From: Malania oleifera | Taxonomy: Eukaryota > Streptophyta > Magnoliopsida > Santalales > Ximeniaceae | NCBI RefSeq assembly: GCF_029873635.1 | Contig: NC_080422.1 | Coordinates: forward strand, 1,654,001-1,718,000 | DNA length: 64,000 nucleotides | Direction of reading: 5' to 3' | Part shown: in pieces, positions 11,492 to 64,000 of the stretch | How positions within the stretch are numbered: the stretch's first letter is position 1 | Layout of the letters: each line of letters starts with the position of its first letter | Notes under the pieces: model-generated | Told to the model about the DNA's origin: nothing | Database searches by the model: none | What the model saw: only the letters and a program-made list of their open reading frames with translations | Position numbers and translations under genes: made by a program

Positions 11492-11632
11492 ATTCGTAGA
11501 CGAATACAGGGTTTCGTCGACGAGAAAATACCGAGAGACAGATATGGGCTGCTTTGAATTTCGTCGACGAATACAGAGTTTCATCGATGAATTTAATGAA
11601 GGGTCAACGAGGTGACATATCTCGTCGACGAA
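11492..11632 (+). repeat. GTCGAC palindrome cassette, LTR A
   Basis: Five or six full or decayed copies of TCGTCGACGA lie just before CATAAATAG. The last is preceded by GTGACATATC, a decayed form of the GTGACGTGGC seen in sister LTRs. Confidence 0.85.
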
Positions 11633-12285
11633 TCTGGCAACATAAATAGTGGGAAATCGGGATTTTTTTTTTCATTTTCAGCGCCCCTTTCTCTCTCTCT
11701 CTCTCCTCTCTCTCTTTCTTTGTTTCCGGGCCTATTTCTCGCCGGATCGAAGATCTGAGGCTACCACAACGCTCCTGGCGAAATTCTTTGCAAGTCTACC
11801 GGAGTTGATCGTTGGAAAAGTTGGGTTGGATTTCGTCCCAATCTCAGGGTAAGACATTTTATTCAGTATTTTTCTTTCCCTCAGTTATGAGAAATGTTGT
11901 AGGTAAGAAAATATTGATATTTTGTTCTGGAGAATTGTGTTTTTAGGAAGTTGACCTAGGAACCCTGCGGGTATAGAGCCAGAATTTTTAGGGGCTTTTC
12001 AAAGTTAAGGTAAGCGAAATATGCTATGCTAGGAGTTTTCATAATGCTATTAGAGATTTCATGGACACATATTTATACCAGTTTATTATAAAGTATTTAC
12101 AGAATATGAATTTAAATGCTTGTGTGGTCTGAGTAGATTTTCACGTGATGAAGAATTTATACAACTTTTATAATGTATCATACTATACTGAATGCACAGA
12201 GATTATATAGAGAAATTTATATGCATATACAGCTTTTATATGAATAATTTCATGATACAGATATATATATACATACATACATATA

Positions 12286-12327
<42 letters not shown>
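12286..12327. repeat. (AT)n microsatellite in LTR A
   Basis: About 20 AT units followed by an (AC) run. Confidence 0.9.
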
Positions 12328-12337
<10 letters not shown>

Positions 12338-13500
12338 CACATATACATGTATATAGTTTTACTCAGATCAGTATATATATTACAATTTTATACAAAATAG
12401 TATGTACAGTGTTTAGCATGTCATGTTTTTCTTATTACCATAACATACAAAGTATATAGACAGAGTATATAGATAGATATACAGATGTAGCATCAAGATG
12501 CTACAGATACAATATACAGAGATTACAGTATTTACAATACATAAAGATAGCGTTATGGAAATTTTGGGAACATGATGAAAACAGTAAAAGAGTATATATG
12601 TATATAGTATCAGATCCCTATGGAAAGATTACAGACAGATATGGTTATAGAGCACGGTACCATTGCTATATACATATAGAGTGCAATCACATATTTCAGA
12701 TAATATGTGGGTACCATCTAACTGTGCTCGGAGTGGATGCAGCTCTCCAGTATGCTAGGTTGAGAGGGCCGGTTAGACGAGGCAGCAGCCAGTCCCGCGC
12801 TTAAGAGTGAATGCAATTTGGCCGGGCTGAGGTAGTGTAGAGTATGATGACTTACCTGGAGGGCCGACCAGGTTAAGTCCCGCCTATGGGCCGCACAACC
12901 TAGTCATGAGGGGTCAAATCATGACGTACAAAGTCCCAAGGATAAAACACAGTTATGTATATGTATATAGTTTTACAGTATATGATAAGTATGGTATGGT
13001 ATTATCAGTATGAAAAGTAGAAAATACAAACGATACAATATATTTTAAATTGTGAAAGAAAAATATGCTTTACAGATTATTTATTTCATTACAGTTCAGT
13101 TATTACTTAAAAGTACTCTTAACTTAGTTGCCACACACTAATAATAGTATATTTCCACTTACTAAGCGTCTGACTCACCCCATTACTTTAACATTTTTCA
13201 GGTGAGCCAGTTAGGCGAGCAGATCAGATGAGCGAATAGAGAGAGTGTTGATTACCCTGGTTATAGGGTGAGTTTTTTTTTTGACAAAGTTGTGTATATT
13301 TTTGGGTAGATGATGTTGGAGGGGTTAGTCTTGTATGGCTATGGCGAATATACACTGAATTTTGGTACTGTATAGTATATATATTTGAATGGTTGTATGA
13401 TTTATGTTTCCGCTACTTAGATACGGATATATAAATGGATAGAATTCTGAGGATATTACATGAAGGACCTAAAAAATATTTGTATAATCGAGGTGAGACA

Positions 13501-15837
13501 TGTAATGACGCGAAATTTAAAATAATTAGGAAATATAATAAATGAAATGGATTAATGGGTAATAAGGAAAAAAGAAAGAAATTAGAAGAGGAACAGCAGG
13601 CCTTGTCGACGAATGTCATGTCCTCGTCGACGAGTGTCCTTCTAAAGCTGGTGAATGAATCTAGTTGCTCGTTGACAAAGGAATCTAGAGAGAGTATATT
13701 TTGGAACTTTGAAATTCGGCAACGAGGGTATCTTCTCGTCAATGAAGTCTCTATAGTGCCTCGTCGACGAATCCATGTGTCTCATCGACGAAGCTCTGCT
13801 TATAAATAGAGAGTTCTTCATTTTTTCAGCGAAAACTCGCGACCTCTCTCTCCTCTCTCTCTTTCTAGGACGATTTTCCCACCTTCTCTCTTTGATTTCG
13901 GGTCGAATTTGACTCAGTTTGACAATTCGAAACTACCACGAGATTCGTGGGATCGTTCTTTGCAAGGCTGTAGGAGCTAATCGTTGGTTTAAGGGGTTTG
14001 GAAAATATCCCAAAATCAGGGTAAGTGAATTATTTTGGGATTTCCTTAATGAATATTGTTATTTGGAGCCTAGAAAGTAGTAAATAAGTATTTTCTTAAG
14101 ATTTGAGTTGATTGGAATTTATTTTAATTAAGTTAGGATTTTTGGATTCAGGGTCCAAGTGAACGCTGCGGGTATCGGTTCGGGGATCCTACCAACGTAG
14201 TTTAAAGTCAGGTAAGGGAGAAATTTATGTATTGAATCAAGTTTTTCATGAATTAAAAAGGATTATATGTTATTTATGTGTATATGTTTTTATGTGAGTT
14301 AAAAATGCCAGCCATGAAATTTACGTTTTCTAAACCTAGGATTGTTTATATAGTTATGTATATATGAAAGTAAAAGAATGAAAGTGAAAGGAATTTTCTA
14401 AGGAATTAAGTAAGAAATAAAATGTATTTTCAGCATATAAATGTTAATTATGGGTTGACTTATTTTGTAAGGAATGTATATAAATTTTATTGTTAAATTG
14501 TGTGACATGAGATTCTGTGCAAATATATGTTAAATGTATGAGATGTTGGCTAAATAAGTAAAGTATTGAGAATAAAATGTGATATGGACAATGTTACTTG
14601 TGTATGTTAAATGCAACCATGTAAATGTAAGACAGCTAAAAGACAGCCATGTTAGCAGTTTCTAGCGCATTTCTATGTGGACTAACTGATGATGGCTAAA
14701 GAGCAGCTGTAGTACGAATGAATGAAATGAAAATTTTATGCAATGAAATGACAATGGAATGACCATGAAATGAAATGACAAATGTGAACGAAGTAAATGG
14801 GAAAGAGTCACTTAAAGTGAAACGCAATGTTTAAGTTATGAACATGAACAGATGTGTATGAATGAATAATGACAGAAAGAAATAAGGTATTATGATATTA
14901 AAAGTATCTATATATATAGAATATATTACGATTGGGCGAGGCAAACTCTTCGCCTGAGGGCTTGTTGAGAAAGGCGAGTGCACTAGTAGTTTCAGATGTG
15001 GCAGTAACTGCATAACATACTAAGGTAAAGGAAACCTATTTGTATGGGCGGGTAGATTTTCCTATCCTTAGGACCTTTGCTGGTAAACTATTGTTGAATG
15101 TGTGAGTATGAGATCAAGTTAACACTTGAGGACTTACTGAGTAAGGTGAGTGCTCTAGTATGTTTTAGTTGTGACCTCAAGGTTGCGTAAGTATGAAAGC
15201 AGAGTGGTGCTACTTGTATGGGCGGGTAATCATCCATACCCTTGGGCAATCTCATGGGTTAAATATTTGCATGTGTTTATTTAAGTTCAGAAAACGATTT
15301 CAATTTTATGATAATGATTTGTAAATATATTTAAAATGATATCTATTTACCTCATGTGGCCACATGCTGTTTTAATATGTATGTTTCTTCCCTTACTGAG
15401 ATGTGTCTCACCCGAATATGATTATTTCTTTTTCAGGACATCCTCAAGGTCAGGCTTAGAGAGCTCGAGGGTTTTTAGCCTTTTGAGGATCGTATAAAGA
15501 GAAAGGGTATATGTTGATACTATTTTGGGGATGTAAATACTTATGTTTTATGTTTTATGCCGTTATGTTTTAAGGATGTTGTGAGAGAAATGGTTGTGAA
15601 TATACAGAAATGTGTTGGAGATCTATGTATCTATGCAAAATGCAGGTGATGGATAAATTTTATGGATTTATAGTTAGAAAATAGTACACCCTAGTATTAC
15701 GACATTATGATATTATAGTATAATGTTATATGGAGATTATGTTATGTTTTTTGCTGCGTATGTATTGATTTATGGATAATCAGGATTATATCAGGTATAA
15801 CACACCAAACCCGGGTTTATGGGTTTGGGACGTTACA
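13501..15837 (+). mobile_element. Solo LTR B (gypsy), inserted in the left LTR of C
   Basis: Runs TGTAATGACG to CGTTACA, 2337 bases, with a perfect AGACA duplication (13496-13500 and 15838-15842). It contains a palindrome cassette and TATAAATAG at about 13801. Its middle differs from most sisters: a GGGCGAGG...GGCGAGTGC module and two TTGTATGGGCGGGTA blocks (about 14930-15250), shared with solo LTR H. It ends with the CCTTACTGAGATGTGTCTCA block and a TTTTTCAGG. Confidence 0.9.
13603..13793 (+). repeat. GTCGAC palindrome cassette, LTR B
   Basis: Six or seven full or decayed TCGTCGACGA copies end just ahead of the TATA box at about 13801. Confidence 0.85.
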
Positions 15838-16547: not shown

Positions 16548-16548
<1 letters not shown>

Positions 16549-16594: not shown

Positions 16595-16599
<5 letters not shown>

Positions 16600-16918: not shown

Positions 16919-16921
<3 letters not shown>

Positions 16922-20920: not shown

Positions 20921-21117
20921 GACTCATCGACAAGATGGCATCCTCATCGACGAGCCGCAGAAGGAAGTTCGTCGACGTTAAGGTGAACTCATTGATGAGC
21001 TTAAGATTTCAGGACTTCCCAAAATCTCTCGGTATTACCTCATCGACGACCTACTGAATCTTGTCGCTAAGCTGCACAAGGGACTTCGTTGACGAGAAGA
21101 GAAGCCCCGTCGACGAG
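20921..21117 (-). repeat. GTCGAC palindrome cassette, left LTR of C
   Basis: Several full or decayed TCGTCGACGA copies. In - orientation they precede the LTR TATA-like CTATAAGTT, now displaced beyond insert D (about 16657). Confidence 0.8.
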
Positions 21118-21945: not shown

Positions 21946-22132
21946 CTCGTTGACGAACAAGGGATTCGTCGATGAGAATACACGAGGGGATCGTCAACGA
22001 GGACGCGTCTCGTCGACGAGAAGATACCGAGGGGATTTATCGCAATTCTAAATTTCGTTGACGAGGAGTAAGTTTTCGTCGATGAATTGCCTTCTTGACC
22101 TCGTCGACGAAGTGACGTGGCTCGTTGACGAA
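21946..22132 (+). repeat. GTCGAC palindrome cassette, LTR F
   Basis: About seven full or decayed TCGTCGACGA copies. The last two flank GTGACGTGGC and end nine bases before TATAAATAGG. Confidence 0.88.
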
Positions 22133-28452: not shown

Positions 28453-30262
28453 TGTCATGCCCCAAACCTGGCAGTGGGCCCCAGGGTGTAATGTAGTAAC
28501 CTAACCTATCCATGTATCATACAAAACACACATGATACTATAATGAATGAGGGTCCGACCCCGTGGGATTTCCATACACCCTATACACATTCACATACAC
28601 GACATATATGCAGCGGAAAAGTTCATTCCATACATACATCGTACCATACCAGAGTCTATACAAACAGAGTCTACGCTCCATATTACAAAACATAACCTAG
28701 GGTGTCGGCAATACCCAAAACGACAACCATGTTACAGTCCAAGTACTTACACAAGTACTCTACGCAGTAAACTGACCACCACGCTCCCAACACTAGGACG
28801 CTAGTTCCACTTACTCGAAGGACCTAAAAACATATACGTATGATAGAGGTAAGACACATCTCAGTAAGGCAGATTCAGGTTATATTGGTGTGTGGCATAT
28901 GAGTGTTATCATGACATAAAACATAACACAGTTCAGTTTCAGTATTTCCACAATACAGTTCCAATATAGTTCTCAACATACACATGATCAATCAATCCAG
29001 TGTCGTCACACTCTTCGACACGAAGCCGACCCGCATTACACGGTGTCGTCGGCATATAGCGTAGCCACAGGCTCTCATGGCATCATTCCGGTACATTTGG
29101 TGGATCCACATCCTTCGGTGATAAGGCGGTAAGAGGCGATATTTCACTGCCCTCGGATATAGAGTTGGACACTCTTGCCACTGGCAGGTGGTATTTCACA
29201 CCCTCGAATATAGAGTCGGACACTCTTTCATAACCTAGAACAATTCGGAACACACATTCCTATATCTCATTTCAGTATATCACAACTCAATGTATATTCA
29301 TATAACAGTTCATTCCACACTTATTTGGTAATCACAAAATCATGATTTTCAAAATACAGTTTAAAACAAGTCAAGGCACGACCATCTCCATAACACAATA
29401 TACTCAACAATATATCCACGGTTTTCCAACGAAACCAGAGATGCAACCTAACACCCCTTTTTCCGCAAAACTGTAACGTGAAAACCTCATAACTTTTACC
29501 CATTAGATTTCCCCAAATAACTAGTCAAAACATACACAGAATCGTGAACCACAGTTCTACCGAATCTGATTTCAAAAATAACCGATATAAACAGAATCCC
29601 CTTAGCTTTCCCCAAAACTCCAAACACGAACTCTACGACTCCTAAACAGTGAACCGAATTCTCAAAACCTATAAATCACAGTACGATAATTACTTACAAT
29701 CTTACTCTCTACTGATTTACCGAAATGGAAATGAAAATCAAGCCTTACCTCGATTTTTGGGTCAAAACCCGAAGACCTCAAAACGAAGATCCATTCCACA
29801 AAACACGTAGAGATTCCTTTCCTGATCCTTGCAGTAATGTCAGATCATCGATTCTAACAACGAACGGCGAAGAAATCTAGAGAGAGAGAGAGTGTGGAGC
29901 TTCGAGTTCTAAAGAGAAAAAGAGAGAGAGAAAATTTTGATAACTTAGCCAAGAAGCAAAGGAAATGGATATTTATAGAGCCTTTGACCTGGCCAACCTT
30001 GTCGACAAGGCGGCGTCTTCATCGACGAGCTAGCGAACTAAATTCGTCGACGTCGTGATGGCCTCGTCGACGAGCCTGAGATTTATGGATTTTCTAAAAT
30101 CTCTCGACTTCTCCTCGTCAACGAACCTCTGCATTTCATCGCCGAACAATAGAAGAGCCTTCGTCAACGAAAACACTAGCTTCGTTGACGAAACCTGCTC
30201 AAATTATTGTTTTACCCTTTTCTTATTTATTTATTCCATATGTCACGGGTCAAGTTCTTACA
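28453..30262 (-). mobile_element. Solo LTR I (C family), inserted in the left LTR of G
   Basis: Runs TGTCATGCCCC to TTCTTACA, 1810 bases, with a perfect TTTTG duplication (28448-28452 and 30263-30267). It aligns along its length with the two LTRs of C, including the AGGACGCTAGTT, GTAAGACACATCTCAG and ACCTCGATTTTTGGG-type blocks. It shows the uninterrupted state of the site where A and B entered C. Confidence 0.9.
29999..30192 (-). repeat. GTCGAC palindrome cassette, LTR I
   Basis: About eight full or decayed TCGTCGACGA copies. In - orientation they stand just before CTCTATAAATA (about 29970-29980). Confidence 0.88.
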
Positions 30263-30317: not shown

Positions 30318-30492
30318 TTCGTCGACAAGACACAGCCCAAAAGAGAGTTCGTCGACGAACACTTATTCATCATCGACGAATTTCAGGCCCTGAAATAACA
30401 TCTCTCAGTAATTTCTTGTCGACGAGACACGCGTCCTCGTTGACGATCCCAATAAGCTGCTTCGTCGATGAACTCCTTGCATTCGTCGACAA
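30318..30492 (-). repeat. GTCGAC palindrome cassette, left LTR of G
   Basis: Six full or decayed copies. The LTR TATA box (GTATAAATAG on the - strand, about 30300-30309) lies ten bases beyond. Confidence 0.88.
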
Positions 30493-33400
30493 AATCCTGC
30501 TATAACCCCCTTTAAAATTTCCTTTTCTCCCTCTTTTATTATTTAATTGTTATTACATTCTGCCCTTCTTATAAAAATTTCGTCCTCAAAATTTACTATC
30601 TGTATCGACATCATCCTTTGAAGAAAATGGACTACTTATTTTATTACTTACCCTCACTTTTGGCGGAGGAATACCGTGGTTACATTCAAGGTTCTGGGAT
30701 ATTACAAATTCACATAAAATAAAATTCTCCCACAACCAAAATAGTCTCTACTACTAGAAAATGATTACATCTAACTAACCTACACAAAAGAAATTTTACA
30801 TATTCACCATTAACTTTTCCTAATTACTATTGATCCCCGCTGAAGAGATACGAGTACTTCTGTCGTCTTTGCTCCTCGGGTTCCCATGAAGCTTCCTCTA
30901 TTGCATAGTTTCTCCACAAGATTTTTACTAGAGGAATCTTCTTACTACGCAATTCTTGTTCTTTCTTGTCCAAAATCTGTACTGGTGCCTTCTCATACAC
31001 CAGAGTATTCCCGAATTCTATCTCACCATAACTGATCACATAAGAGGGGTCTGGGACGTATTTCCTCAACATGGAGACATAGAATACGTCATGTATTCTG
31101 GACAAAACGGGTGGAAGGCTAGCCTATAGGCAACTGACTCCACTCTTTCAAGGATCTCAAACGGACCAATAAGCCTAAGGTTAAGCTTACCCTTCCTTCC
31201 AAATCTCATAACTCCCTTCAATGGAGCTATTTTCAAAAACATATGATCTCTAACATCAAATTTCAGTTTCCTACGGTGAGTATCAGCGTAACTCTTCTGC
31301 CGGCTCTAAACTGCACTGATTCTATCTCTGATAAGCCAAATTTTATCATATGCCTGCTGCACTAGCTCTGGCCCCACAGATCGCTATTCACCTAACTCAT
31401 TCCAGTATATAGGAGAATGACATATTCTACCATAGAGCACCTCATAAGGTGTCATTCCAATGCTGGGCTGATAACTGTTATTGTATGCGAACTCTACCAG
31501 CGGTATAAATTGAGTCCAACTACCCTCAAAATCCAACACGCACGCCCGCAGCATATCTTCTAATATCTGAATCACCCACTCAGTCTGGTCATCCGTCTAA
31601 GCATGAAACATAGTGCTGAAAGATAACTGAGACCCCAGAGCCTCCTGAAAGCTCCTCCAAAATCGTGACATGAAACGTGAATCTCGGTCTGATACTATAG
31701 ACACTGGCACACCATGAGAACAGACTATTTTCTGAACATAAATATCTGCCAGTCTGTCCATGGAATAGCTAATTTTAATAGGAATGAAGTGAGTGGTCTT
31801 CGTCAATCTATCAACAACCACGCAAATAGCATTCTGACCATGCGGTGCCGGTGGCAAACCTGTCACAAAGTCTATAGATACATGATCCCACTTCCATTTT
31901 GGGATGTGAAAAGGCTGCAACTGGCCCGCTAGCCTCTGGTGCTCAGTCTTTACCTGTTGGCACATCAAACACTGTTGCACAAACTCGACAATTTCCCTTT
32001 TCATGCCGCTCCACCAATAAGATTCTTGAAGATCCATATACTTTGTAGTACTGCCTAGATGAATCGTGTACAAGGACCTATGAGCCTCCTCTAAGATCGT
32101 CCTCCTGATGTCCATATCTGTTGGCATGCACAACCTAGAACGAAACCTCAAGGCCCCGTCATTAGAAATACTAAATTCATCTCCCTGTCTGTCCTACACC
32201 TTAGCTATCAGCTCTGCTAATTCTGCGTCATCTCTCTGAGTTGTCTCAATCCTTTCCTGTAGAGTAGGTTGCACTACCAAGCTGGAAATAAATGCCTGAG
32301 GATTACTTTCTACCAACTCTGCAACAAGTCTCTTTAGATCCATCTAAATCGAATGTTGAACCTCCATAGCTGTTAGTACTGGTCCCAATGAATTCTTGCT
32401 CAGGGCATCAGCTACCACGTTTGCTTTCCCTAGGTGGTAACTAATGGTGCAGTCATAATCTTTAATAAGTTCCAACCACATTCTTTATCTCATGTTCAAC
32501 TCCTTTTGAATGAAAAAGTACTTCAAACTTTTGTGATCAGAGAATATCTCACATCTCTCACTGTACAAGTAATGTCTCCAAATCTTTAACGCGTGCACCA
32601 CTGCAGCCAATTCTAGATCGTGGGGAGGGTAGTTCTTTTCATACTCTTTCAACTGTCGGGAGGCATAAGCTACAACCCTACCATGCTGCATCAATACACA
32701 AACGATCCCTTTCAAAGACGTGTCATTGTAAATGACATAATCATCACCCCCCTGACGAAATGATCAGCAGTGGTGCTGATCTATACACGTTCTCTTAGAC
32801 CCGTACTTCTTCTTTACAAATAACACTGGAGCTCCCCATGGTGATACACTAGGCCAAATAAAACCCTTATCCAGCAAGTCTTACAACTGATCCTTGAGCT
32901 CTCCTAACTCTACAGGAGTCATTATGTAAGGAGCTTTAGAGATCGATTTTGTCCCGGAAAGTAGATCAATAGCGAAATCTACCTCGCGATCGGGAGGTAA
33001 GCCAGGTAGATCTTTTGGAAAAACGTTTGGAAACTCCTTAACCACTAGTGTATTGCACAATTTCAACTCATTTTTTGACACGTCCTTTTCAAACGCGATA
33101 AACCTCTAACAACCATCCAGGAGTAGTCTCCCCACATGTATGGCTGATACTAACTGAGACGGGGATTGCACACGTGACCCTTCAAACCTGAATTTTGGTC
33201 TTCCTAGAGGTCTGAATATTACTTCTTTCAAACGATAGTCTATACTGGTGTAATTAGCTGTCAACCAATCCATACCAAAAATTACATCGAACTCATGCAT
33301 GTCCAATACTATCAAGTTAGCTAGCAAGACTTTCCTTTGAATATCAATTGGACAATCTCGGAGCACTCTACTACACCTTACCACTGATCCTGTCGGCATA

Positions 33401-35930
33401 GTTACTAATATTTCGGTGTCTAGCAACTGTGTTTTTGCCCCACATAATCTGATACACCCCATAGACACGAACAGTTGTGTGGCTCCTGAATCAAACAATA
33501 CAATAACTTTAAATGAAAGCATGTTAACCATACTTGTCACCACATCGCCGATTGTCTCAACATCTCTAGGCGTCAAAACATAAACCCTCGCTGGAGCTAC
33601 ATTCTTCTGCTGGCCTCCACGGAGCGCCTGATAGCCTCCCCGGTACGATCTGAGAGCAGGAGCAGTACTAGGTGGTTGGGGTAATCTTGCACCAAATGTC
33701 CCTGCCTACCGCAGCAATAGCAGACGGTTCTCCCCACTCGACACTCTCCCAAGTGTCTCTTTCCACAAGTTTGATAGATAGGAAAATTCTGCACCGCCTG
33801 TAACTCACGACCTCCAGTCTCCTACCTCTGTCCTCTCCCATAGTTTCCTCTCCTCCATTGACCCTGCCTAGCTCCCAGCTGGAAGCCTGAAGGCGTAAAT
33901 CTCTTCTTCTGTCCCTGCTCCTCTGCATCAATCCGCTCACTAGCCTCAACCAATGCTGCTCTATCGACTAACTCAGCAAAGTCCTGTATTTTCAACACTA
34001 CTACCTACTTGTATATTCCACGCCTGAACCGTCTTTCAAATTGTCTCGCCTTCTTTACTTCATCATGAACAATATATGGGGCGAAGCAAGATAATTCTAT
34101 AAACCTCGCCACGTACTGCTGGACCGTCTGCTGTCCTTACTTCAAATTCAGAAACTCTTCCACTTTAACTTCCCTGACAGTGGCTGAGAAATATCTATCA
34201 AAGAATAATTCTTTAAATCAGTCCCATGTCATAGCTATCGATGTCATCCTTTGCTACTCCAAAAGTCTCACAACAGTCCACCACTTCTCAGCCTCTCATA
34301 TCAGTTTATAGGTGGTGAAGAGAACCCTCTGTTCCTCCGTACACTGTAATACCACAAAAACTTTCTCAATCTCCTGCATCCAATTCTTGGCGGCTATAGG
34401 ATCAACTCCTCTTAAAAATGCTGGTGGATTCATCTTGGTAAATTTCTCTATCGTGCACCAATGGCCTACAGACAGGCCTCCCTGCTCTCTGGAGCTCCTA
34501 GCGATCTCAGTCATAACCTACTGAGCCACACTGCGCAATACCGCATCAAAATTAGTCTCGTCTGCACTCGAGGGCCCTGCACCGTCACTACCGCTCGCAT
34601 GGGCTCCACCTCCTCCAGGGTCCATCCTGAAAAAACCATAAACATGACTCAAGGACCCTATTCTTGTAATTTACACATCTAACTACAATCTCCTATCTTG
34701 ACATCCTTATCTTATTTCAAGATTCAGTCCTACACTATAGAAACATAACCCGACAATAGTTTACTATGACTTTCCTGAAATCGTCACCCCAGGAAAGACA
34801 CAGAAACCACCATGGAAGTCCTACCTCTAAACTGCAAAACAAAACCTCAAATTATTTTCCTATACTCTAGTATTGTTTCTGCTGCACTCTAAAGTTTATA
34901 GAACTTAGCAACTTAGGCTCTAATACCAAACTATAATGACCTGCCTATTTTACCATACATATATTTTTTTTATTTAACATAATAATCCTGATAAAGCATA
35001 ATCAACCTGGACCCTTGGGTACCAAGGATATACCTGAAATACAACACTGATACCTAAGCAGCGAAAAACGTAAAAATCATATACATATTAAATTATCCAA
35101 CCAACACAATACCCGAGTTCTACTACAATTGTTATATACATACACACATCCCAAAATATCCAAAATGTGCCCTAAGGTCACCACCCAAAATCCGTTAGAC
35201 CCTTGCAAAATGACTTATCCTTCAGATAGGGTAAAACAGTCGAACTCTAATGCTGCAGAGCTCTATCTGCTCTTTTATCTAAGGCTCCTGAAATGTTTAT
35301 ATAGTTGGGGCAAGACGCCTCTCAGTAAGGGAAATAAATTAATATCAATGTGTGGCAACATGAGTATTTTTGTGTTATACATATATCAGTACATAAATCA
35401 TATTTGATAAAACTGTCCGTATCATATTTGAGAAAATCATAATTTATCATAACATGGTATGATATACTGAATTTCTATACATAAAAATCATTTCATATAT
35501 CTGTAAATGAAATAACACCCTGGATGGATAGCTAGCTAGTGTCATGTCTTACCCCCACATGACTAGGTTGCGCTGTCCAAAGGCGGGACCTAGTAATGGC
35601 TGGTCGACCATGCTAGATCAACATAAGTTTATAAGTACGATGGGTCTGCCCCTCTTGGTTCGGACATCATAGGGACGCCTGCACTACCATAAAACCACAT
35701 CCACTTCCGATCTCTCACTGCCCCGTACGACAAGTGGTAGCACTAACATATACATGATCATGATCATATAGCTACGGTACCATGCTTCCTGAAAGCCTAG
35801 ACGAAGCCATCCGAATTCTAATAACATATAGTAAATCTCAAATAATGATACATAGCTGTTTCTTAATAAAATCAGTCAAGATAATATTTTCATGAATTTT
35901 TGCATATCATAACGTATAAACCATTGCCCT

Positions 35931-36798: not shown

Positions 36799-36963
36799 TT
36801 CGTCGATGAGACACGTCACCTCGTTGACAAGGCCCAAAAGAGAGTTCGTCGACGAACACTTATTCATCGTCAATGAATTCCAGGCCCTGAAATAACCCCT
36901 CTCGATAATTTCTCATCTCACGCGTCTCCGTCGATGATCCCAATAAGCTGCTTCGTCGACGAG
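36799..36963 (-). repeat. GTCGAC palindrome cassette, right LTR of G
   Basis: Same arrangement as in the left LTR, next to TTATTTATACACC (TATA box on the - strand). Confidence 0.85.
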
Positions 36964-42035: not shown

Positions 42036-42226
42036 TCATCGACGAGCCACGTCACCTCGTCGACGAGTCAATAAAGACAGTTCGTCAACGAAGACGGTGC
42101 CCTCGTCGACGAATTTCAAGCCCTGAAAAACAGCCTCTCGGTAAATTCTCGTCGACGTGACTCGTGTTCCCATCAACGATCCTAATAGGCCACTTCATCG
42201 ACGAACGTACTGTACTCGTCAACGAG
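42036..42226 (-). repeat. GTCGAC palindrome cassette, LTR K
   Basis: About seven full or decayed copies. GCCACGTCACC sits between the two copies next to the TATA-like TATATATA (about 42007-42014). Confidence 0.87.
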
Positions 42227-46185: not shown

Positions 46186-46380
46186 CTCGTCGATGAGACG
46201 GCGTCCTCATCTACAAGCCGCATAAGGAAGTTCGTTGACGTCAAGGTGAACTCGTCAATAAGCCTGAGATTTTAGGATTTCCCAAAATCTTTTGGTATTA
46301 CCTCATCGACGAGCTACTAAATCTCGTCATCGAGCTGCACAAGGGACTTCGTCGACGAGAAGAGAAGCCCAGTCGACGAG
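46186..46380 (-). repeat. GTCGAC palindrome cassette, right LTR of C
   Basis: Same arrangement as in the left LTR, uninterrupted here. GTCTATAAGTT (- strand, about 46160-46170) is the likely TATA region. Confidence 0.85.
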
Positions 46381-47687: not shown

Positions 47688-47879
47688 TCTCGTCGACGAA
47701 CACGGCACGTTCATAGACGAACACGCTTGAGGGGATCGTCGACGGGGGCATGTGTCTCGTTGACAAGAAGTTACCAAGAGACTATTTTCAACTCTGAATT
47801 TTGTCAATGAGGAATAAGCATTCGTCGACAAACTTTCTTCGTGGCCTCATCGATGAAGTGATGTGGCTCGACGATGAGT
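47688..47879 (+). repeat. GTCGAC palindrome cassette, LTR M
   Basis: About eight full or decayed TCGTCGACGA copies ending six bases before TATAAATAG (about 47886). Confidence 0.88.
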
Positions 47880-48728: not shown

Positions 48729-51700
48729 ATTTTATATGATATGTTATGCAAAGTTGTTTGAAGATATTAACATGATAGATATTATTATGAAATAGCTATG
48801 TATTATTGTTTGGAAATATGTTATATGTTATTAGAAGGTCGGCTTAGTTTAGGCTTTCACAAAGTGGACCGTAGCTATATGATCCTGATCATGTTTATGT
48901 TAGTGCTACCGCTTGCCGTAAGGGGTAGTGGGAGATCGGCAGTCGATGTGGTTTATTGTAGCGCAGGCGTCCCTTTGGTGTCCGGACCAGGAGGGGCATA
49001 CCCATCGTACTTACAAACTTATGTTGATTTAGCGTGATCGGACAGCCATTGCTAGGTCCCGCCTTTAGGCCGCACAACCCAATCATGTGGGGGTAAGACA
49101 TGACACCAGTCAGCTATCCACCTAGGGTATTTTCTACGTACAGTTATATGAGATTATTTATACGTATAGAAATTCAATATGTTATACCATATTATGATTA
49201 AATATGTTTTCCCACATATGATATAGATAGTTTTATTAAGTGTGATTTTTGTACTATTATATATATAACATGAAAATACTCATGTTGCCACATATTGGTA
49301 TTAGTTTATTTCCCTTATTGAGAGATGTCTCGCCCCTGTTATATAAATATTTCAGGAGCTCCAGATAGGAGAGCAAATAAAGCTGTGCAACGCTAGAGTT
49401 CGATTGTTCTACCCTGTCTGAAGGGTAAGTCTTTTGCTAGCGTTAGACGGATTTTTAGGTGGCAACCCTAAGACTCTTTTGGATATTTTGGGTTGTATGT
49501 ATTCATATGATAGTTATAGTAAACTTTGGTATTGTGTTAACTGGTAATTTGATATGTATATGATTTTACGTTTCCTGCTACTTGGGTATCAGTATTGTAT
49601 ACCAGGTATACCCCTTGCACCTTTGGGTCTAGGTGGATTATGATTTATCAGGTTGATTATGATTTGCCAAGATTATATGTGGGATATTTTTATGGGAAAA
49701 AAATTTGTAAAATAAGCAGATCGTTATAGTTTGGAATCAGAGCCTAGGTTGTTAGGTTTTGTAGAGTTTAGAGTGCAGCGAAAACGATACCAGAGTATAG
49801 AAAGGATTTAAGGTTTTGTTCTACAGTCTAGAGGCAAGACTTCCATGGTGGTTTCAGTGTTTTTCCTGAGGTGACCATTTCAGGAAAATCATAGTAAACT
49901 ATTGTTAGGTTGTGTTCCTAAAATGTAGGACTAGATCTAGAAATAAGATGAGGATGTCAAGATAGGAGACTATGTTAGGCACATAAATTATAAGGATAGG
50001 GTTTCTAAATCACGTTATTTGTTTTTCAGGATGGATCCGGGAGGAGGTAGTGCCCATGCGAGCGGTAGTGATGGAGCAGGGCCCTCTAGTGCAAGCAGCG
50101 CTGATTCTAATGCGGTATTACGCAGTGTGGCTCAGCAAGTTATGGATGAGATTGCTAGGAGCTTCAGAGAGCAGGGAGGCTCATCTACAGGCTATGGGTG
50201 CATAATAGAGAAGTTTACCAAGATAAATCTTCTGCCATTTTCAAGAGTACTTGATCCTGCAGCCGCCAAAAATTGGATGCAGAAGATCGAGAAAGTCTTG
50301 GAGGTATTACAGTGTACGGAGAAGCAAAGGGTTCTCTTCGCCACCTATAAACTGACAGGGGAAGCTGAGAGGTGGTGGACTGCGATGAAACTTCTGGAGC
50401 AACAGAGGACGATGCTGATAATTATAACATGGGATCAATTTAAAGAATTAATCTTTGACAGATATTTCTCAGTCACTGTGAGGGAAGCTAAAGTGGAAGA
50501 GTTCTTGAATCTGAAACAGGGACAGCAATTGGTCCAGCAGTATGTAGCGTGGTTTATAGAGCTTTCCTGCTTCGCTCCGTATATTATTCATGATGAAGTA
50601 AAGAAGGCGAGACAGTTTGAAAGAGATTTGAGGCGGGGCATATACAAGTAGGTGGTAGTGCTGAAGATACAGGACTTTACTGAGTTAGTTGACAAAGCAG
50701 TCTTGGCCGAGGCTAGTGAGCGTATGGATGCAGAAGAACAAGAACAGAAGAAGAGATCTACGCCTTCAAGCTTCCAGTAGGGACTTAAGCAGGGTCAATG
50801 GAGGAGAGGAAACTATGGTAGAGAACAGAGGTAGGAGACTAGAGGTCGTAAGGTTCAGGTGGTGCAAAATTTTCCTGTCTATTAGACTTGTCGGAAGAGA
50901 CACTTGGGAGAGTGTCGAGTGGGGAAAGTTGTCTGCTATCGCTGCGGTAGACAGGGACATTTGGTGTGAGACTGCCATACACCACCAGATACCGATCCTG
51001 CTCCCAGACCGTACCGGGGAGACTATTAGGCGCCTCATGGAGGCCACCAGAGGAATGTAGCTCTAGCGAGGGTCTATGCTTTGATGCCTGGGGATGCTGA
51101 TACAGTCGGCGATGTGGTGACAAGTATGATTAATATGTTTTTATTTAAAATTATTGTATTGTTTGATTCAGGAGCCACACATTCGTTTGTGTCTATGGAG
51201 TGTATTAGATTATGTGGGCCTGAAACACAGTTATTAGACACCGAACTGTTACTCACTACACCGACAAGGTCTGCAGTAAGGTATAGCAAAGTGCTCCAAG
51301 GCTGTCCAATTGATATTCAGGGGTAAGTCTTGTCAACTGATTTGATAGTATTGGATATGCACAGGTTCGATGTAATTTTTGGTATAAAGTGGTTGGCAAT
51401 TAATTACGCTAGCATAGACTAACGTTTGAAAGAAGTATTTTTTAGACCTTCGGGAAGATCAGAATTCAGGTTTATAAGGTCACAAGTGCAATCTCCGCCT
51501 CAGTTAGTTTCAGCTATTCAAGCGAGGAAACTGCTTCTGAGTGGTTGTTAGGGATTCGTGGCCTTTGTGAAGGAAATATTAGGGAATGAATTGAAGTTCA
51601 CTAGTACGCCAGTAGTAAAGGATTTTATAAATGTTTTTCCAGATGAGTTACAAAGCTTGCCACCTAATCGGGAGGTAGATTTTCCTATTGATCTGCTTTC

Positions 51701-54700
51701 AGGTACAACACCGATCTCTAAAACACCTTACCGAATGGCGTCAGCAGAATTGGAAAAATTAAAGAATTAGTTATAACATTTGCTTGATAAGGGTTTTATA
51801 CGACCTAGTGTATCTCCGTGGGGAGCTCAAGTATTATTTATAAAGAAGAAAGACGGGTCCATGAGGATGTGTATAGATTATAAAGAAATTAATAAGGTTA
51901 CAATCAAGAATAAGTATCCTTTATCCCGTATAGATGATTTATTTGACCAGCTCCAGGGTACACGGGTGTATTCTAAGATTGATCTCAGATCAGGCTACCA
52001 TAAGGTGAAAGTGAAAGCAAAAGATGTCTCGAAGACAGCTTTTAGGACCAAATATGCACATTATGAATTCCTTGTTATGCCGTTTAGTTTGACGAATGCT
52101 CCTGCAATATTCATGGATTTGATGAATAGAATTTTCCACCAATATTTAGACCAGTTTGTTGTTATTTTTATTGATAATGTACTAGTCTATTCGATGAGCT
52201 ATGAGGAGCATGCGATGCATTTAAGGCAAGTCTTACAGATGTTCAGAGAAAAGAAGTTGTATGCCAAGTTCAACAAATATAAATTCTGACTCGAGAAGGT
52301 TGTGTTTTTGGGGCATGTCATCTCATGGAATGGAATTTCTGTGGATCTTAGTAAAATTGATGCAATAGTAAATTGGGCTAGATGGAGGAACGTTAGAGAG
52401 ATCAAGAGTTTCTTGGGGCTGGTTGGGTATTACCATCGTTTTGTTAAGGGATTCTCAGAGTTATCAGGGTCTCTAACGCGACTGACTAGGACGAATGTCA
52501 GGTTTGAATGGGACGACAGCTATGAGCAGAGCTTTCAGGAATTGAAGCAAAGGCTTGTCACGGCACCAGTGTTGATCATCCCGTCAAAGGTGAGGGTTAT
52601 GTTATCTACAGTGATGCGTCCTTGAAGGGACTTGGTTGTGTATTGATGCAACATGGTAGGGTGGTAGCGTATGCTTCCAGACAACTGAACATCCAGAAAC
52701 TGACTTTCTGGAATCAATATCTCCTGTCCTATTGGAGTTACAATATCCAATTAGGGAATTCCTTGATGTATAAGAGATGCCAAAATGAGGAGTCCCTTTT
52801 ATATACTTGAGAACCCTCATTCCAGCCTTCCAGTGAATTTCTCGTGGCTTATTTGCAAATCTACTCAGAATACCAACTGCAAAACTGATATTGGGCCTTG
52901 TGTTGCACAGGTACACCAAACTCCCAATTAGGCTTCTCTACCTCTATCAACATATGGAGAGGGATCTTTAATGGAGAGCTTAATGTTTACTTCCATTGGA
53001 GTAACCGCTGGAGTGCATTCTGCCATCGCAAATGCCTTTAATAACTCGTGAGCATATTGTTGTTAAGAAATAAAGATTTCTCCTAGATGCTACCACACTT
53101 CAATGCCTAAGAAAAAGTGGAGTAGCCCCAAGTTTGTCATCTTAAATTCTGAGCATAGGCCTTCACAGATGTTGTTGATCTTCTCCTCATGGTCACCTGT
53201 AAGCACAAGATCATCTACATATAGTTCAATTATTACATACATCTCACTCTCCTTCAGTACATATAAATTTGCATTAGAGGTACTTCTACAAAATCCATAA
53301 TTGGTGAAGAAAGAATCAATCCTCTAGTACCAAGCTCTAGGGGCTTGTTTTAGCCCATATAAGGTTTTCTTCAACCTGCACACTTTGTTGTCTGAATTTG
53401 GAAATTCAAATCTAGGTGGTTGCATCACATAAACCTCCTCTTTAAGATGACCATTGAGGAATGTAGACTTCACGTCCATTTGAAATAGCACCTAGCTTAT
53501 GTCTGCAGTAGTAACCAAAACCAAACGGATTGTTTCCATGCGAGCTGTTGGTGCAAAGGTTTCAGTAACATCAAAACCTTCTACCTAAGAAAATCCTTGG
53601 GCGACAAGGCGTGCTTTGTACTTCTCTAAAGTACCATCAACTTTATATTTTACCTTCCATATCCACTTCGTGCCGATTACCTTCCTATGAGAGGAGCGAT
53701 CCACAATCTCCTAAGTATCATTTTTCATGATACTTTCATATTCAGCTTCCATAGTCGTTCTCCACTTCGCATCAGCCAGCGCTTCATCTAGGCTACTTGG
53801 TTCCTTAACTGTACTGATTATATCAGTCATTAAGGTCATATTTACCAAGTGTTATGCTGATCGTTGTTATTCGTCTATTCACTTCGACCTTCGAGGTCCA
53901 TCGGGTTGTGAACTTTGATTCACAGGTTCTAGATTGCCTTTGTCAAAGAGCTATTGTAACCGCCTTGGGTGTGGCTTCTGAACAGGTGCTACTGGTACAA
54001 CAGGCTGGTTTTGAATTTCTTCATCATTCACCTCAATCTGCTACTTTGAATGAGGCACATGGTGGGTTACTTTATCGGTTGATGATAAAGTGGGTTGATC
54101 TCTATCTCCCACTGAGTGTGGTCCTTCATCAAATACGACATATCGGCTTGTGACAATCTTCTTTGCCTCTACATCATACAAACGATATGCCTTCAATTTT
54201 GTACTATATCCCAAGAAGATGCACTTTCAACTCTTGTCATCTAACTTCCTTCAACTCTCATCTGGAACATGCACAAAACATCTGCAACCAAATGTTCTAA
54301 GATGAGAAATGGAGGGTTTCTTACCAGAGTAAGTCTCATGAGGTATTTTGTTCCCCAAAGCTTTAGTGAAGCATCAGTTGAGGATATACACAGTTGTATT
54401 AACAGCTTCTCCCCAAAACGATTTTGGAAGGTCTTGTGCCTTTATCATTGCTCTGGTCATCTCCATCATAGTGCAATTTTTCCGTTCCACAATGCCATTC
54501 TATTGTGGATTTTTTTAGTGCCGAAAATTGGCGCTTAATGCCAAATGCACTGCAATAATTGTTGAACCCCCCTAATGTGAACTCGCCTCCTCGATCAGTT
54601 CGAAGTTTCTTTAACTGCAAACCTGTCTCATTTTCAACAAGTTTATGCCACACTTTAAATTTTACAAAAGCCTCAGCCTTATCATGAAGAAAGTACACCC

Positions 54701-57573: not shown

Positions 57574-57699
57574 TTCTCGTCGATGAGAAGTTACCAAGAT
57601 GCTATTTTCAGCTCTAAATTTTGTCGACGAGGAATGAGCATTTGTCGACGAACTTCCTTCGTGGCCTCGTTGACGAAGTGACGTGACTCGTCGACGAGT
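57574..57699 (+). repeat. GTCGAC palindrome cassette, LTR N
   Basis: Five full or decayed copies. The last pair flanks GTGACGTGAC and stops seven bases before TATAAATAG. Shorter than in M: the first pair is missing. Confidence 0.88.
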
Positions 57700-59723: not shown

Positions 59724-61760
59724 TCACCAGTAGTCCTTGCAAGAGCAAGATCCATTCTTGAAATGATGAAATCGATTCTGATCTCTCACAATTATTTCCC
59801 TCTTATACACCTTAGATATAACCTTCAAAGCAGAATGGCAGTCATTGCATGTTCGTAGATTCTTTACCACCCGAATAGTCTTTCCAGAAGGCGTGCTCAT
59901 AAGTCCAAAAGCAACAGCAATCCTCTCACTGTGGTATCCAACTGCACTCTCTTTCTCCTCTTCCTCTATGTCATGCAGCACAGAAGTTGTATCTGGCTTA
60001 TGCCCGTGAGCTTTTAATTCCTTCGCAATCTCATCTAAGAATGCATTAATTAGTGGGAATTGGGAATGTGAAGTGTCACCTGCCACAAACTCATGTATAA
60101 TATTGTCTACCTCAACTGAACTGCATCCGGGCGTCTTATGTGCTCCCTTCTCAATCATTAACTTTCGACATATGCCCACATCACTCCAGCGATTTAATGA
60201 TGCATATAGGTTGGACATAAACACATAATTTCCACTATCAGATGGATCCAACTCCAAGAGATGCCGTGTCACTAGCTCACAAAGTTCAGTGTTCTTATGA
60301 ATTTGACATGCTCGGAGCAGGCTTCCCCACACCACTGAATTTGGGTTTAAGGGCATGGTCCTTACGAGTTCTAATGCTTCTTTGAGAAGGCCAGCTCGAC
60401 CCAGAAGGTCAACCATGCAGCCATAGTGTTCAATTCGAGGTTCAAGCCCATACCTGAGTCGCATTTGAGAGAAATATTTTCTACCTGCAGAAACCAAGCC
60501 TGAATGGCTACAACCACTCAAAAGCCCAACAAAGGTGACCTCATCTGGATGTATCTTCTCCTTTTTCATGGAAGTAAAAACATCTATAGCCTCTTGCCCA
60601 TAACCATGCATTCCTAGTCCTACAATAATAGAATTCCAACAAAAGATGTTCCTCACTGGGAGTCCACGAAATACATCTACAGCAGCTTCTATGCTCCCAC
60701 ACTTACAGTACATGTCTATAAGAGCATTACCTAAAACAACATCCATTTTGAAATTTTTCCTTCTAATATAAGCATGAATCCATTCTCCTATATCTAAGGC
60801 ACCAAGATGGGCACAGGCAGATAACAAGCTAACCATGGTCACCTCAGTCGGCCTCACGTTTTCAGCTTGCATTTGCTGAAATGTCAAGATTGCTCTTCCA
60901 AATTCCCTACACTGTACATACCCAGATATCATCGTATTCCAAGTGACACAGTTTTTAACCGATCCAATTTGGTTGAACAACTCCTGAGCAAGTGTTAACT
61001 GCTCAGACTTACAGTAACCATCAATCATTGCATTCCACGAGACCACATCTTTAACCGGACAGCGATCAAACATCAACCGTGCAGAATCAATATCGCCGGA
61101 CTTGCAATAGCAAGTTATCATCGAATTCCAAGAACAAGAGTTCCGCTCCGGCATTTCGTCAAACAAATCCCGTGCTTCCTTGACATGCCCGTGCATACTT
61201 AAAGCTGAAACCATTGCATTATTTGCCACCACATCCTTTTCAGGCATTTCTACGAAAACTCGTTCAGCAGACCTTAAATTTCCAACTTTGGCATAAAAAT
61301 CAAGCAACCCAGTTTGTAAAATCACGTCGAACGGAAAACCCATTTTTATCATCTGGGAATGAAAAGCTTCGCCGATTTGGGTTGCGCAATTAACGGCACA
61401 AGAGCGAAGGATTGAAGTAAACACAGCCTTGCTGGGAACCACATTGTTATAGAGCATAACATTGTAAAAACTAACAAAATCTACGCCATTACCATGTCCT
61501 AACGAAACTCGAATCATTGAATTCCACAAAGAGGGGTCCGGATGTGGCAGCGTCTGCAGCAAAAGCAGAGCGTAACGGGGTTTCTGAGACCGATAACATG
61601 AAGAAAGGAAGGTCGTGAGGAAAGGAGTCGAATGGAGATAGCCGCTGGTTAGGATTTGAGCGTGGATTTGTTGAAGTTGTCCAAGGTTCAGGAGATCGTT
61701 GCGCAGTTTTGATGCTAGAGAATCGGCGAGAGATAAAAGATTTCTATGAATCGAATACAT
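59724..61760 (-). CDS. PPR protein, PLS class with E, E+ and DYW domains
   Basis: Single-exon - strand gene of 678 residues from the ATG at 61760, the usual intronless layout of plant PPR genes. After a short N-terminus come about ten P, L and S repeats, for example [34 protein letters not shown] and [21 protein letters not shown] and E+ motifs follow ([20 protein letters not shown], then [10 protein letters not shown]). The DYW domain is complete: HSE near residue 610, CNDC near 638-641, HHF, and terminal CSCKDYW. Such proteins bind organelle RNA and act in C-to-U editing, the DYW domain being the deaminase. Target site and organelle cannot be told from sequence here. The basic N-terminus is compatible with mitochondria or plastids. 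Solo LTR N ends 0.2 kb beyond the stop codon and a large fold-back lies 0.2 kb upstream. The gene appears intact, with no internal stop. Confidence 0.95.
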
Positions 61761-61763
61761 CAA

Positions 61764-61968
61764 ACAGCAGTCGTGCTCTAGTCAAGGAATCATCTTACAA
61801 GTTACAGAAGCCCAAAGGGGCAGCAATTGCCGCCAGGACTCAGGAGAGCGTTTAAAATTTCCTAAACGTATTGTGATTGTGTGTATTGTTTACTTCAAAT
61901 TTAGAATTGATTTAATCTCAGTCCAATCATCATTGTGCTCAATGTATTTCAAGTTGATATTAAGGAGC
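61764..61968 (-). promoter_or_regulatory. Presumed 5' region of the PPR gene
   Basis: About 205 bases between the PPR start codon and the fold-back at 61969. No strong TATA box is seen, as is usual for PPR genes. The assignment rests on position only. Confidence 0.35.
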
Positions 61969-62277
61969 CCCAGAGTTTTATCTAATTCGACCTTGTTGAG
62001 GTCTATTAATTTTTGTAGGACGGTGTTTGGAGTTTTTTCCTGGATTAACTTGTTTTACTAAAAATAATACCCTATTCTGAGAAATATTTCCTAAAATGAC
62101 TCTGACGAAATATCTTGCTGGACCAAGTAGCGATGTTTCGTTAGAGTTATTTTAGGAAATATTTCTTAGAATAGGGTATTATTTTTAGCAAAAAAAGTTA
62201 ATTTAGGAAAAAACTCCAAACACCGTCCTACAAAAATTAAAAGACCTCAACAAGGTCGAATTAGATAAAACTCTGGG
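61969..62277. repeat. 309-bp near-perfect fold-back (142-bp arms, 25-nt loop)
   Basis: Arms 61969-62110 and 62136-62277, from CCCAGAGTTTTATC to GATAAAACTCTGGG. I count about nine differences over 142 positions (about 94% complementarity). Most are G in the left arm against T in the right arm, so a + strand RNA would form G-U pairs there. The loop is ATCTTGCTGGACCAAGTAGCGATG-like, given here only by position (62111-62135). No coding frame and no evident target duplication. Candidate MITE or small-RNA precursor. Confidence 0.9.
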
Positions 62278-62311
62278 ACTGTGCATGAATGATGCTGGTG
62301 TAGACGTGTGG

Positions 62312-62910: not shown

Positions 62911-62915
62911 GCGTG

Positions 62916-63305
62916 TTCGGTCGACCGAACTTTCCTAGTATAAATCACTTGGTCGATCGAACAGATCAGCGGTCAACAATTTGATCATGGCTTGGTTGAC
63001 AGAACCAGACTAGTTCAATTATGTTGGTCGACTGAACTTCCCCTGGTCAACACTTTAACCTTTTAGTTGACCGACAAGGAAAGTACTTCAACGTCCTGGT
63101 CGACTGAAGTTCCTCAGGTGATGTCCCAACTACCTGGTCGACCGAACTTCATAGTTCAAAGTGTCCCGATCGACCGAACCACGCTAAATTGGAAAATCAC
63201 TTTCAAATCTTCTGAGACGGTTGACCAACAACTAAGTACATTTTCTCCGCGGTCGACTGAACTTGGACACTTGGTCAACCGAACCTTAAGTTCGGTCGAT
63301 CAGTG
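62916..63305. repeat. Array of GGTCGACCGAAC-type palindromes
   Basis: At least twelve full or decayed copies of TTCGGTCGACCGAA in about 390 bases: about 62916, 62951, 62971, 62994, 63026, 63066, 63098, 63136, 63168, 63218, 63251, 63273 and 63290. They are spaced 20-50 bases apart with unrelated spacers. Variants are mostly C-to-T or G-to-A changes in the CG steps. The translated frame over part of it (63067-63327) has no family resemblance. Confidence 0.85.
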
Positions 63306-63310
63306 CTCTC

Positions 63311-63667
63311 AGGTTGGCGAGAATTAACAAGGTTAAAACACAGTTAAAATTTTATTAACCTTATTTAAACTTTTCCAAAAATCTCTAATATGTCCCTAAT
63401 GGTCAGATTTTCTAAAAATTCTATAAATGCCCCCTCATAACTCCAGATTAAAAATTTTGATTAACTCTAAATTTCTCTCTAATCCTTTGTTAATAAAAGT
63501 TCCTCCAACCCATTTTTATTGCAAAAATTTCTTCTTTGGGGCAAAATTTTTCAAACTAAACTCTCCAACTCTCTTTCCATCCATTCATTTCAAAATCATT
63601 TTGTAAAGAGAATGTATTTATTTTGGGCATTTATTTTCGTATTCACATGCTATACTCTCACATACTA
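63311..63667. other. AT-rich spacer between the palindrome array and LTR P
   Basis: No gene or clear repeat is seen. T/C-rich runs at 63480-63590 resemble an untranslated leader, but no coding frame follows. Confidence 0.35.
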
Positions 63668-64000
63668 TATAAGAACCCGAACCGTGATATATGGGTTTAA
63701 ATAATTAAGAGAGGGTAAAATTAGAATTTCAATAAGCTTCGTCGACGAAGCCAAAGTTCGTCGATGAAGGCCTTGTATTTCTTGTTGATGAAGTTCAGAG
63801 GCTCGTTAACGAGGAGAAGCCGAGAGATTTTGGGAAACCGAGAATCTCAGACTCGTCGGTGAGGTCACCGTTTCGTCGACAAGTTGTCTATATGACCTTG
63901 TCGACGAGGACACCATTTTGTCGATGAGGATGGCCGAGTCAAAGGGCTATAAATATCCTTTCTCTTTACTTCCAGGCTAAGAAAACTAGATTCTCTCTCT
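63668..64000 (+). mobile_element. LTR P (C family), cut by the window end
   Basis: Starts TATAAGAACCCGAACC, the C-family LTR start (TGTAAGAACC) with a likely G-to-A change, and matches the reverse complement of LTR I. It carries a palindrome cassette and CTATAAATAT at about 63948, then the start of the leader. The rest lies outside the window. Confidence 0.75.
63739..63929 (+). repeat. GTCGAC palindrome cassette, LTR P
   Basis: Seven or eight full or decayed TCGTCGACGA copies end about 19 bases before CTATAAATAT. Confidence 0.87.

Follow-up and report, generated by a model that had tools for sequence, protein, structure and literature searches.

Arrays of one CpG-rich palindrome upstream of the TATA box in Ty3/gypsy long terminal repeats of Malania oleifera

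The stretch of DNA analyzed here, referred to as the window, comprises 64,000 nucleotides of the Malania oleifera genome (contig NC_080422.1, positions 1,654,001 to 1,718,000) and carries long terminal repeat (LTR) retrotransposons whose LTRs contain cassettes of the 10-bp palindrome TCGTCGACGA, repeated several times upstream of the TATA box. An initial annotation of the window had pointed to these arrays in gypsy LTRs and proposed that they are selected recognition sites. With a cassette defined as three or more hits with up to two mismatches, the window holds 12 (Table 1), and these contain 59 of the 60 sites matching TCGTCGACGA with at most one mismatch, a number to be compared with 0.67 expected from 100 dinucleotide shuffles (largest count 2). 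Six cassettes lie in plus-strand LTRs and six in minus-strand LTRs, and an LTR-start-like string is found 58-102 bp before the cassette in nine of the 12, so that the cassette fills most of the short region between LTR start and TATA box. Matches to gag-pol domains were obtained in five open reading frames (ORFs) of the window, four of which lie between cassette-bearing LTR pairs, the fifth (43097-43687) being without assignment; the rve match scored 32.5 bits at a cutoff of 32.6. At the locus L009, RVP_2 and RT_RNaseH matches lie between its two cassettes, and two other ORFs of L009 gave no match. The cassette-bearing elements are Ty3/gypsy LTR retrotransposons, the domains being pooled over elements, with no single element carrying all of them. 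The LTR of the cassette at 20924 is apparently split by insertions into 10934-11317, 15838-16687, and 20920-21201.

Table 1. Palindrome cassettes of the window and the coding regions of cassette-bearing elements (palindrome sites are given as offsets in bp; distances are from the last palindrome to the TATA-like box)
Feature	Coordinates	Strand	Details
Cassette	11419..11631	+	6 hits with <=2 mismatches; TATA-like CATAAATAG at 11641 (9 bp after)
Cassette	13603..13791	+	Sites 0,21,66,113,133,158,179; TATAAATAG at 13801 (9 bp)
Cassette	20924..21116	-	No TATA match; LTR partner is the LTR of cassette 46187-46379, about 44965-46463
Eight-palindrome cassette	21947..22131	+	Sites 0,19,44,63,108,129,154,175; TATAAATAG at 22141 (9 bp); TGACGTGG in last spacer
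Eight-palindrome cassette	29999..30191	-	Sites 0,21,46,67,118,138,163,183; TATAAATAT 21 bp on; GGTCAAAGG between
Cassette	30319..30492	-	Sites 0,21,46,67,113,134,164; TATAAATAG 9 bp on; LTR partner of 36800-36962
Cassette	36800..36962	-	TATAAATAA 9 bp on; LTR start TGTAGAGACCC at 37042
Cassette	42036..42225	-	Sites 0,21,67,113,134,159,180; TATATATAT 20 bp on
Cassette	46187..46379	-	TATAAGTT 20 bp on; LTR partner of 20924-21116
Cassette	47690..47877	+	Sites 0,21,46,67,132,157,178; TATAAATAG at 47887 (9 bp); element holds gag 50019-50651 and reverse transcriptase 51780-52289
Shortened cassette	57577..57697	+	TATAAATAG at 57707 (9 bp); LTR partner of 47690-47877
Cassette	63739..63927	+	TATAAATAT at 63948 (20 bp); GAGTCAAAGG between
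Gag (Retrotrans_gag, Ty3_capsid) and reverse transcriptase (RVT_1) ORFs	50019..52289	+	Between LTRs of cassettes 47690 and 57577
Integrase (Integrase_H2C2, rve) and protease (RVP_2) ORFs	31597..33576	-	Between LTRs of cassettes 30319 and 36800

Across the host assembly (1.494 Gb, 510 contigs) exact TCGTCGACGA occurs 132,361 times, as against 1,383 occurrences of the reversed word, a lenient control because it is made up of identical letters but lacks CpG. The genome-wide count and the comparison with shuffled sequence, both of which the initial annotation had named as checks, find the word in large excess. A further sample of 20 stretches of 10 kb (200 kb), taken at round-number coordinates on six large contigs (C1-C6), contained 24 exact, 47 one-mismatch, and 58 two-mismatch sites, whereas 29 control palindromes made of the same half-site letters gave no exact site and at most eight one-mismatch sites each. 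In this sample, 68 of the 71 sites with up to one mismatch lay inside cassettes, 15 of which were spread over 12 of the 20 stretches; a very rough extrapolation by hand from these 15 puts the genome at 60,000-185,000 cassettes. The same three-hit rule identified a cassette at 38 of 40 loci fetched from C1, these being its first 40 clusters of the word (93-999 kb), clustered by eye from the genome-wide places, and a cassette was found at 19 of 20 loci picked by similarity (the best 20 of 39 other matches to one U3 region of the window). At 75% identity, single-linkage clustering sorted 85 cassettes into 13 clusters, and at 85% into 53, indicating that the array is carried by many subfamilies. 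Chance or composition as the cause is ruled out by the shuffles, the 29 other palindromes, and the reversed word. A recent minisatellite is likewise ruled out, as Tandem Repeats Finder (score >=40) reported no 46-bp array over the window cassettes and the spacers are only weakly alike. Matches in IMG/VR to the 21-bp palindrome pair came from 10 contigs, nine with a G+C content of 58-72% and one of 40%, none of which has more than two separate sites (up to one mismatch) within 100 bp, and they were taken as chance.

The palindromes are arranged in a lattice. Complete cassettes have eight of them at steps of about 21-25-21-46-21-25-21, spanning about 190 bp overall, and in the 85 cassettes 427 of 489 distances between neighboring palindromes (summed by hand) are 19-21, 24-25, or 44-47 bp, a distance of 46 bp also resulting when a site in between has decayed. 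Genome-wide, exact palindrome pairs number 6,179 at 21 bp and 2,498 at 25 bp, compared with 105 at 23 bp. The distance to the TATA box is fixed as well, an exact palindrome being followed by TATAAATA 6,897 times at 9 bp, 3,333 times at 19-21 bp (three lengths together), and six times at 14 bp. A strict TATA rule oriented 53 of the 85 cassettes, the remaining 32 standing outside the distance counts, and placed the TATA box 9 bp past the last palindrome in 29 of these 53 (17 of 38 outside the similarity-picked loci), at 19-21 bp in 16, at 11-12 bp in two, at 30 bp in four, and at 40-42 bp in two; a distance of 30 bp would fit a decayed last site (9 + 21). The 9-bp and ~20-bp distances differ by about one helical turn, a point on which we lay no stress. 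Within the window, strict TATA[AT]A lies within 60 bp of nine of the 12 cassettes, and with a relaxed pattern 11 have a TATA-like box after their last palindrome, at 9 bp in seven (including CATAAATA at 11641) and at 20-21 bp in four, the cassette at 20924 having no TATA-like match. The location of the array before the TATA box, as first described, stands, but the description had missed both the 21/25/46-bp lattice and the fixed TATA distance; its further point, that the position of the palindromes is tied to the LTR promoter, is supported. Helical phasing of all eight sites was considered and ruled out, because it is broken by the 25- and 46-bp steps and only the 21-bp pairs are in phase.

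Some cassettes extend beyond eight sites, namely L050:218-503 (13 hits), L067:258-545 (12), and L062:228-509 (10), a few of the hits overlapping, from which it appears that site number can expand. The cluster at L019:3971-4116 has a shifted, CTCGTCGACTAG-like word and no TATA box at the expected place, and is possibly another family with a changed site.

Within the cassettes it is the exact word that recurs. Among the palindromic 10-mers of the 85 cassettes, 179 in number, TCGTCGACGA accounts for 150 and the next most frequent, TCATCGATGA, for nine, the sites having been found with TCGTCGACGA itself; were pairing or palindromy all that counted, one would expect many other palindromes. The letters flanking the palindrome are mostly Y...R. 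At 165 palindrome sites compared by alignment (19 more being gapped), the T/A positions show 3-9 changes each and the C/G positions 20-47 each, and CpG transitions (C to T or G to A) make up 167 of the 207 changes, a bias that points to methylation in the germ line. With three CpGs per 10 bp, the array could also be imagined as a CpG-dense platform for the DNA methylation machinery or for CpG-binding proteins, without a dedicated transcription factor, and the preponderance of CpG transitions would suit such a role. A platform of this kind, however, would not preserve the T/A positions, the spacing, or the TATA distance, and the CpGs of the palindromes decay indistinguishably from the other CpGs of the same LTRs (76/313, or 0.243, versus 37/116, or 0.319; p 0.14), so we regard it as very unlikely. 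This similar decay also argues against resident copies being durably shielded from methylation. Parallel changes in the two half-sites, given as observed/expected under independence for positions 1-5, were 0/0.1, 3/2.3, 10/7.9, 0/0.0, and 1/4.4; half-site covariation thus showed no excess overall, with what may be a slight excess at one position (10 versus 7.9) and a deficit at another (1 versus 4.4), which argues that palindromy as such is not what is kept.

Comparison of palindromes with their own spacers provides a test of selection. In an alignment of 23 of 27 cassettes (L019, L020, L022, and L024 aligned poorly and were dropped), pairwise identity was 0.785 in palindrome columns, 0.466 in spacers, and 0.483 in flanks, and with all 27 cassettes the values were 0.758, 0.429, and 0.455. 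None of 186 rotations of the palindrome mask matched this difference, so that the full-length alignment without excess conservation of the palindromes, which would have spoken against the initial annotation, is not what is seen, and its observation that the palindromes persist while the spacers are less conserved holds. The picture is reversed after insertion. Nine presumed LTR pairs, whose two members share orientation, lie 4.6-25 kb from each other, and are 75-89% alike, have palindromes that differ at 115 of 632 positions (0.182) and spacers that differ at 88 of 931 (0.095; p 8e-7 if sites are independent), a ratio of 1.93 (bootstrap 1.35-2.59), with L060/L061 as the sole pair of the nine showing the opposite (6/63 in palindromes versus 14/80 in spacers). 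Such a decay, about twice as fast in the palindromes, is as expected of CpG-rich methylated DNA. Between elements, on the other hand, pairs matched so that each cassette was used once and spacer divergence was at least 0.30 (about 37 pairs per matching) gave 0.204 for palindromes and 0.386 for spacers, a ratio of 0.53 (0.47-0.59), and none of 500 resamplings attained the lower bound of the LTR pairs. Palindrome divergence stays flat at 0.18-0.21 across the LTR pairs and all four bins of spacer divergence; in the most distant bin the spacers are 0.41 diverged and the palindromes 0.20, about the level of post-insertion decay alone. Fast decay within pairs together with constancy between elements points to a palindrome kept in the lineages that transpose, and the plain reading would be that the copies that later transposed had kept their palindromes intact, irrespective of the spacers.

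These divergence ratios also bear on the view that the array reflects shared ancestry only, that is, an old tandem duplication in an ancestral LTR, copied along with no present function. The cassettes are indeed alignable end to end with a common core, and spacers within one cassette are weakly alike, the 11-bp spacers having an identity of 0.342 (84 pairs) versus 0.270 for shuffled letters and 0.826 for the palindromes, as after an old duplication from which the spacers would since have diverged; the 15-bp spacers are somewhat more alike (0.45). Without selection, however, CpG-rich palindromes should outpace the spacers between elements as they do within LTR pairs, and they do the reverse, so we give ancestry alone hardly any weight. 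The cassette is a real, genome-wide, and selected promoter array, the observation being stronger than the initial annotation had described, and in mask rotation, divergence ratios, spacing, and TATA distance its sites behave like the selected recognition sites proposed there.

Mean identity among 11-bp spacers is 0.40, compared with 0.27 for random 11-mers, and 50 of 78 are distinct. In the subgroup with the TATA box 9 bp on, TGACGTG sits inside the last spacer, and ACGT is present in the last spacer of 21 of 29 such cassettes (12 of 17 without the similarity-picked family), as against 15 of 238 other spacers. GTCAA occurs in eight of the 16 cassettes with the TATA box 19-21 bp on, seven times as GTCAAAGG, and TCAA in none of the 29 with the box 9 bp on. 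We take TGACGTG to be a bZIP-type box and GTCAA to be W-box-like. The accessory boxes vary by subgroup, as in a composite enhancer.

Building on the lattice, the set distance to the TATA box, a word that stays constant while spacers diverge, and its faster decay after insertion, we consider it reasonably probable that the cassette serves the LTR promoter as its upstream activating region, with its palindromes bound by a sequence-specific, most likely homodimeric, cooperative host transcription factor. The preservation of the exact word points to a protein, and the constant step and TATA distance point to promoter DNA rather than RNA. In this proposal, up to eight copies of one exact 10-bp palindrome would serve as the binding sites of a putative sequence-specific protein. 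They form four pairs, with 21 bp (two turns of B-DNA) from one member of a pair to the other, and the last copy stands at a set distance before the TATA box; the binder, most likely a homodimeric host transcription factor acting cooperatively, would recruit the transcription machinery to the LTR promoter. Protein binding, the host origin of the activator, its dimeric action, and the joint working of several sites are what we infer from these features.

Several observations weigh against this proposal. The LTR pairs were called from proximity, orientation, and similarity rather than from target-site duplications; the sites were found by the motif itself, which somewhat inflates palindrome identity, the same rule applying within and between elements; and the two LTRs of a single element can enter the between-element set in separate pairs. 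The spacers are not entirely free to vary, as the 15-bp spacers of one cassette have an identity of 0.447 (20 pairs) and the 9 bp before the TATA box an identity of 0.55. The 25- and 46-bp steps put the eight sites on more than one face of the helix, and the double-change test is low in power because 167 of the 207 changes are CpG transitions. The cassettes also have strong predicted RNA folding (mean z -3.69 for 28 folds of 14 cassettes, both strands, with 26 folds below -2), in line with a role of the palindromes in RNA: as part of the U3 of the 3' LTR they would be transcribed, and they could pair with one another in hairpins or across two RNA molecules. Such pairing could act in dimerization or packaging, or be a by-product turned into small RNAs by the host, as proposed for maize Sireviruses, whose palindrome clusters are described as small-RNA hotspots in the parts of the literature consulted (PMC10760457, PMC5311732). 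Folding, however, follows from repeating any self-complementary word, and a role in RNA by itself needs no exact word, no 21/25-bp step (6,179 and 2,498 pairs versus 105), and no fixed TATA distance (6,897 versus 6); two-sided half-site changes, albeit in a test of low power, show no excess. We therefore consider the RNA explanation unlikely and prefer binding by a host factor.

The closest precedent, which the initial annotation had missed, is found in Sirevirus (Ty1/copia) LTRs. As far as the sections on these motifs go, Bousios et al. (2010; PMC2829016) describe palindromic repeated motifs (RMs), eight or more of them to an element, which for the most part cluster in the LTR ahead of the TATA box and are missing from the classic elements compared there; the RMs differ between most elements, all those listed except that of Tnd-1 have a CGG-CCG core, and many elements also have RMs before ENV. 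The arrays reported here resemble them in being short CpG palindromes in about eight copies, located in the LTR shortly upstream of the TATA box and conserved amid diverging flanks, and the RM of a Vitis Sirevirus, CGGTCGACCG, has the GTCGAC core in common with the present word (PMC2829016, same sections). In contrast to Sirevirus RMs, the present arrays occur in Ty3-type elements, TCGTCGACGA contains neither CGG nor CCG, and, relative to what those sections report, one word is used across families in a 21-25-21-46-21-25-21 lattice at 9 bp or ~20 bp from the TATA box. The Ty3-type elements and the lack of the CGG-CCG signature indicate that the present cassette is not a member of the Sirevirus RMs. 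In maize, palindrome regions of Sireviruses have been tied to small RNAs and silencing in work cited, within the portions consulted, by PMC10760457 and PMC5311732; these regions share with the cassette a palindrome-rich regulatory part of the LTR and strong predicted structure, and rapid evolution is reported for them. The silencing link there rests, by the same account, on small-RNA mapping. Among the open-licence papers listed, judged mostly by titles and the beginnings of abstracts, none was found that reports TCGTCGACGA as an LTR motif, and the Sirevirus work is the only one found on LTR palindrome arrays of this type. What is new with respect to that precedent is the occurrence in Ty3-type elements, the word itself, its lattice, the fixed distance to the TATA box, and the selection test.

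VANDAL21, unlike the elements considered here, is a group of DNA transposons. Its VANC protein provides the model for a further explanation, raised as speculation by the initial annotation, in which the palindromes would be targets of an element-encoded anti-silencing or activator protein. In both systems a single short word is densely repeated in the non-coding promoter region of an abundant group of transposons, the word having nine bases in the case of VANC21 (PMC5735166, in the part on its targets). The VANC21 motifs, however, have one orientation, expand by tandem repeat formation, and have a known element-encoded binder (PMC5735166, same part), whereas TCGTCGACGA is its own reverse complement and has no orientation, and Tandem Repeats Finder gives no 46-bp array over the window cassettes. 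Moreover, nine ORFs scanned gave seven with gag-pol matches, two without a match (E <= 0.001), and no extra DNA-binding ORF, in a small search of decayed copies. With the weak likeness of the spacers (0.34 versus 0.27) and palindromic CpGs that decay like others, the anti-silencing role as first suggested does not fit well, and a VANC-like protein is in our judgment improbable. The proposed host factor has a parallel in stress-responsive LTR promoters such as ONSEN (HSF) and EVADE (WRKY), where host transcription factors bind LTR sites; there the factors are known, and no multi-site palindrome lattice is described in the part of the review drawn on here (PMC12786077), a review in which the string "palindrom" occurs 0 times.

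More tentatively, and with some doubt, it may be that one putative DNA-binding factor, host or element-encoded, recognizes TCGTCGACGA and is the common master switch of many Ty3/gypsy families in this genome, and that the eight-site lattice and the Sirevirus arrays converged on a general design of LTR promoters that have to fire through or despite CpG methylation. Our data suggest that LTR palindrome arrays placed before the TATA box also occur outside Sireviruses and may represent a convergent solution. From a practical point of view, the cassette could be used directly as bait in a search for the factor that lies behind this very abundant group of retrotransposons in a large plant genome, and its thousands of copies at all stages of decay are natural replicates for relating site number, spacing, and CpG loss to activity. 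The contrast between fast post-insertion decay and between-lineage constancy is a simple test for functional LTR sites that is usable on any genome.

Several other features of the window are of note. Nesting of elements is deep within 10934-46463, where the LTR fragments 24173-24593, 27149-28452, and 30263-30553 (partner 34939-37042) seemingly represent one split LTR; the insertion splitting it may be a solo LTR at 28453-30262. A second tandem repeat, with units of 29-58 bp and CCGTACGCCGG-like cores, is present at 18505-18693, 35902-36050, 48596-48724, and 58376-58506, and sits further inside the LTRs of several cassette elements, apparently in both orientations. A 679-aa ORF at 59724-61763 (minus strand) is the only clear host gene recognized in the window; it encodes a pentatricopeptide-repeat protein with an E motif and a DYW deaminase domain (Pfam). 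Finally, self-complementary stretches at 61966-62280 (316 aligned bp, 90.5% identity) and 4931-5341 (419 aligned bp, 79.7% identity) are perhaps foldback elements or elements resembling miniature inverted-repeat transposable elements.

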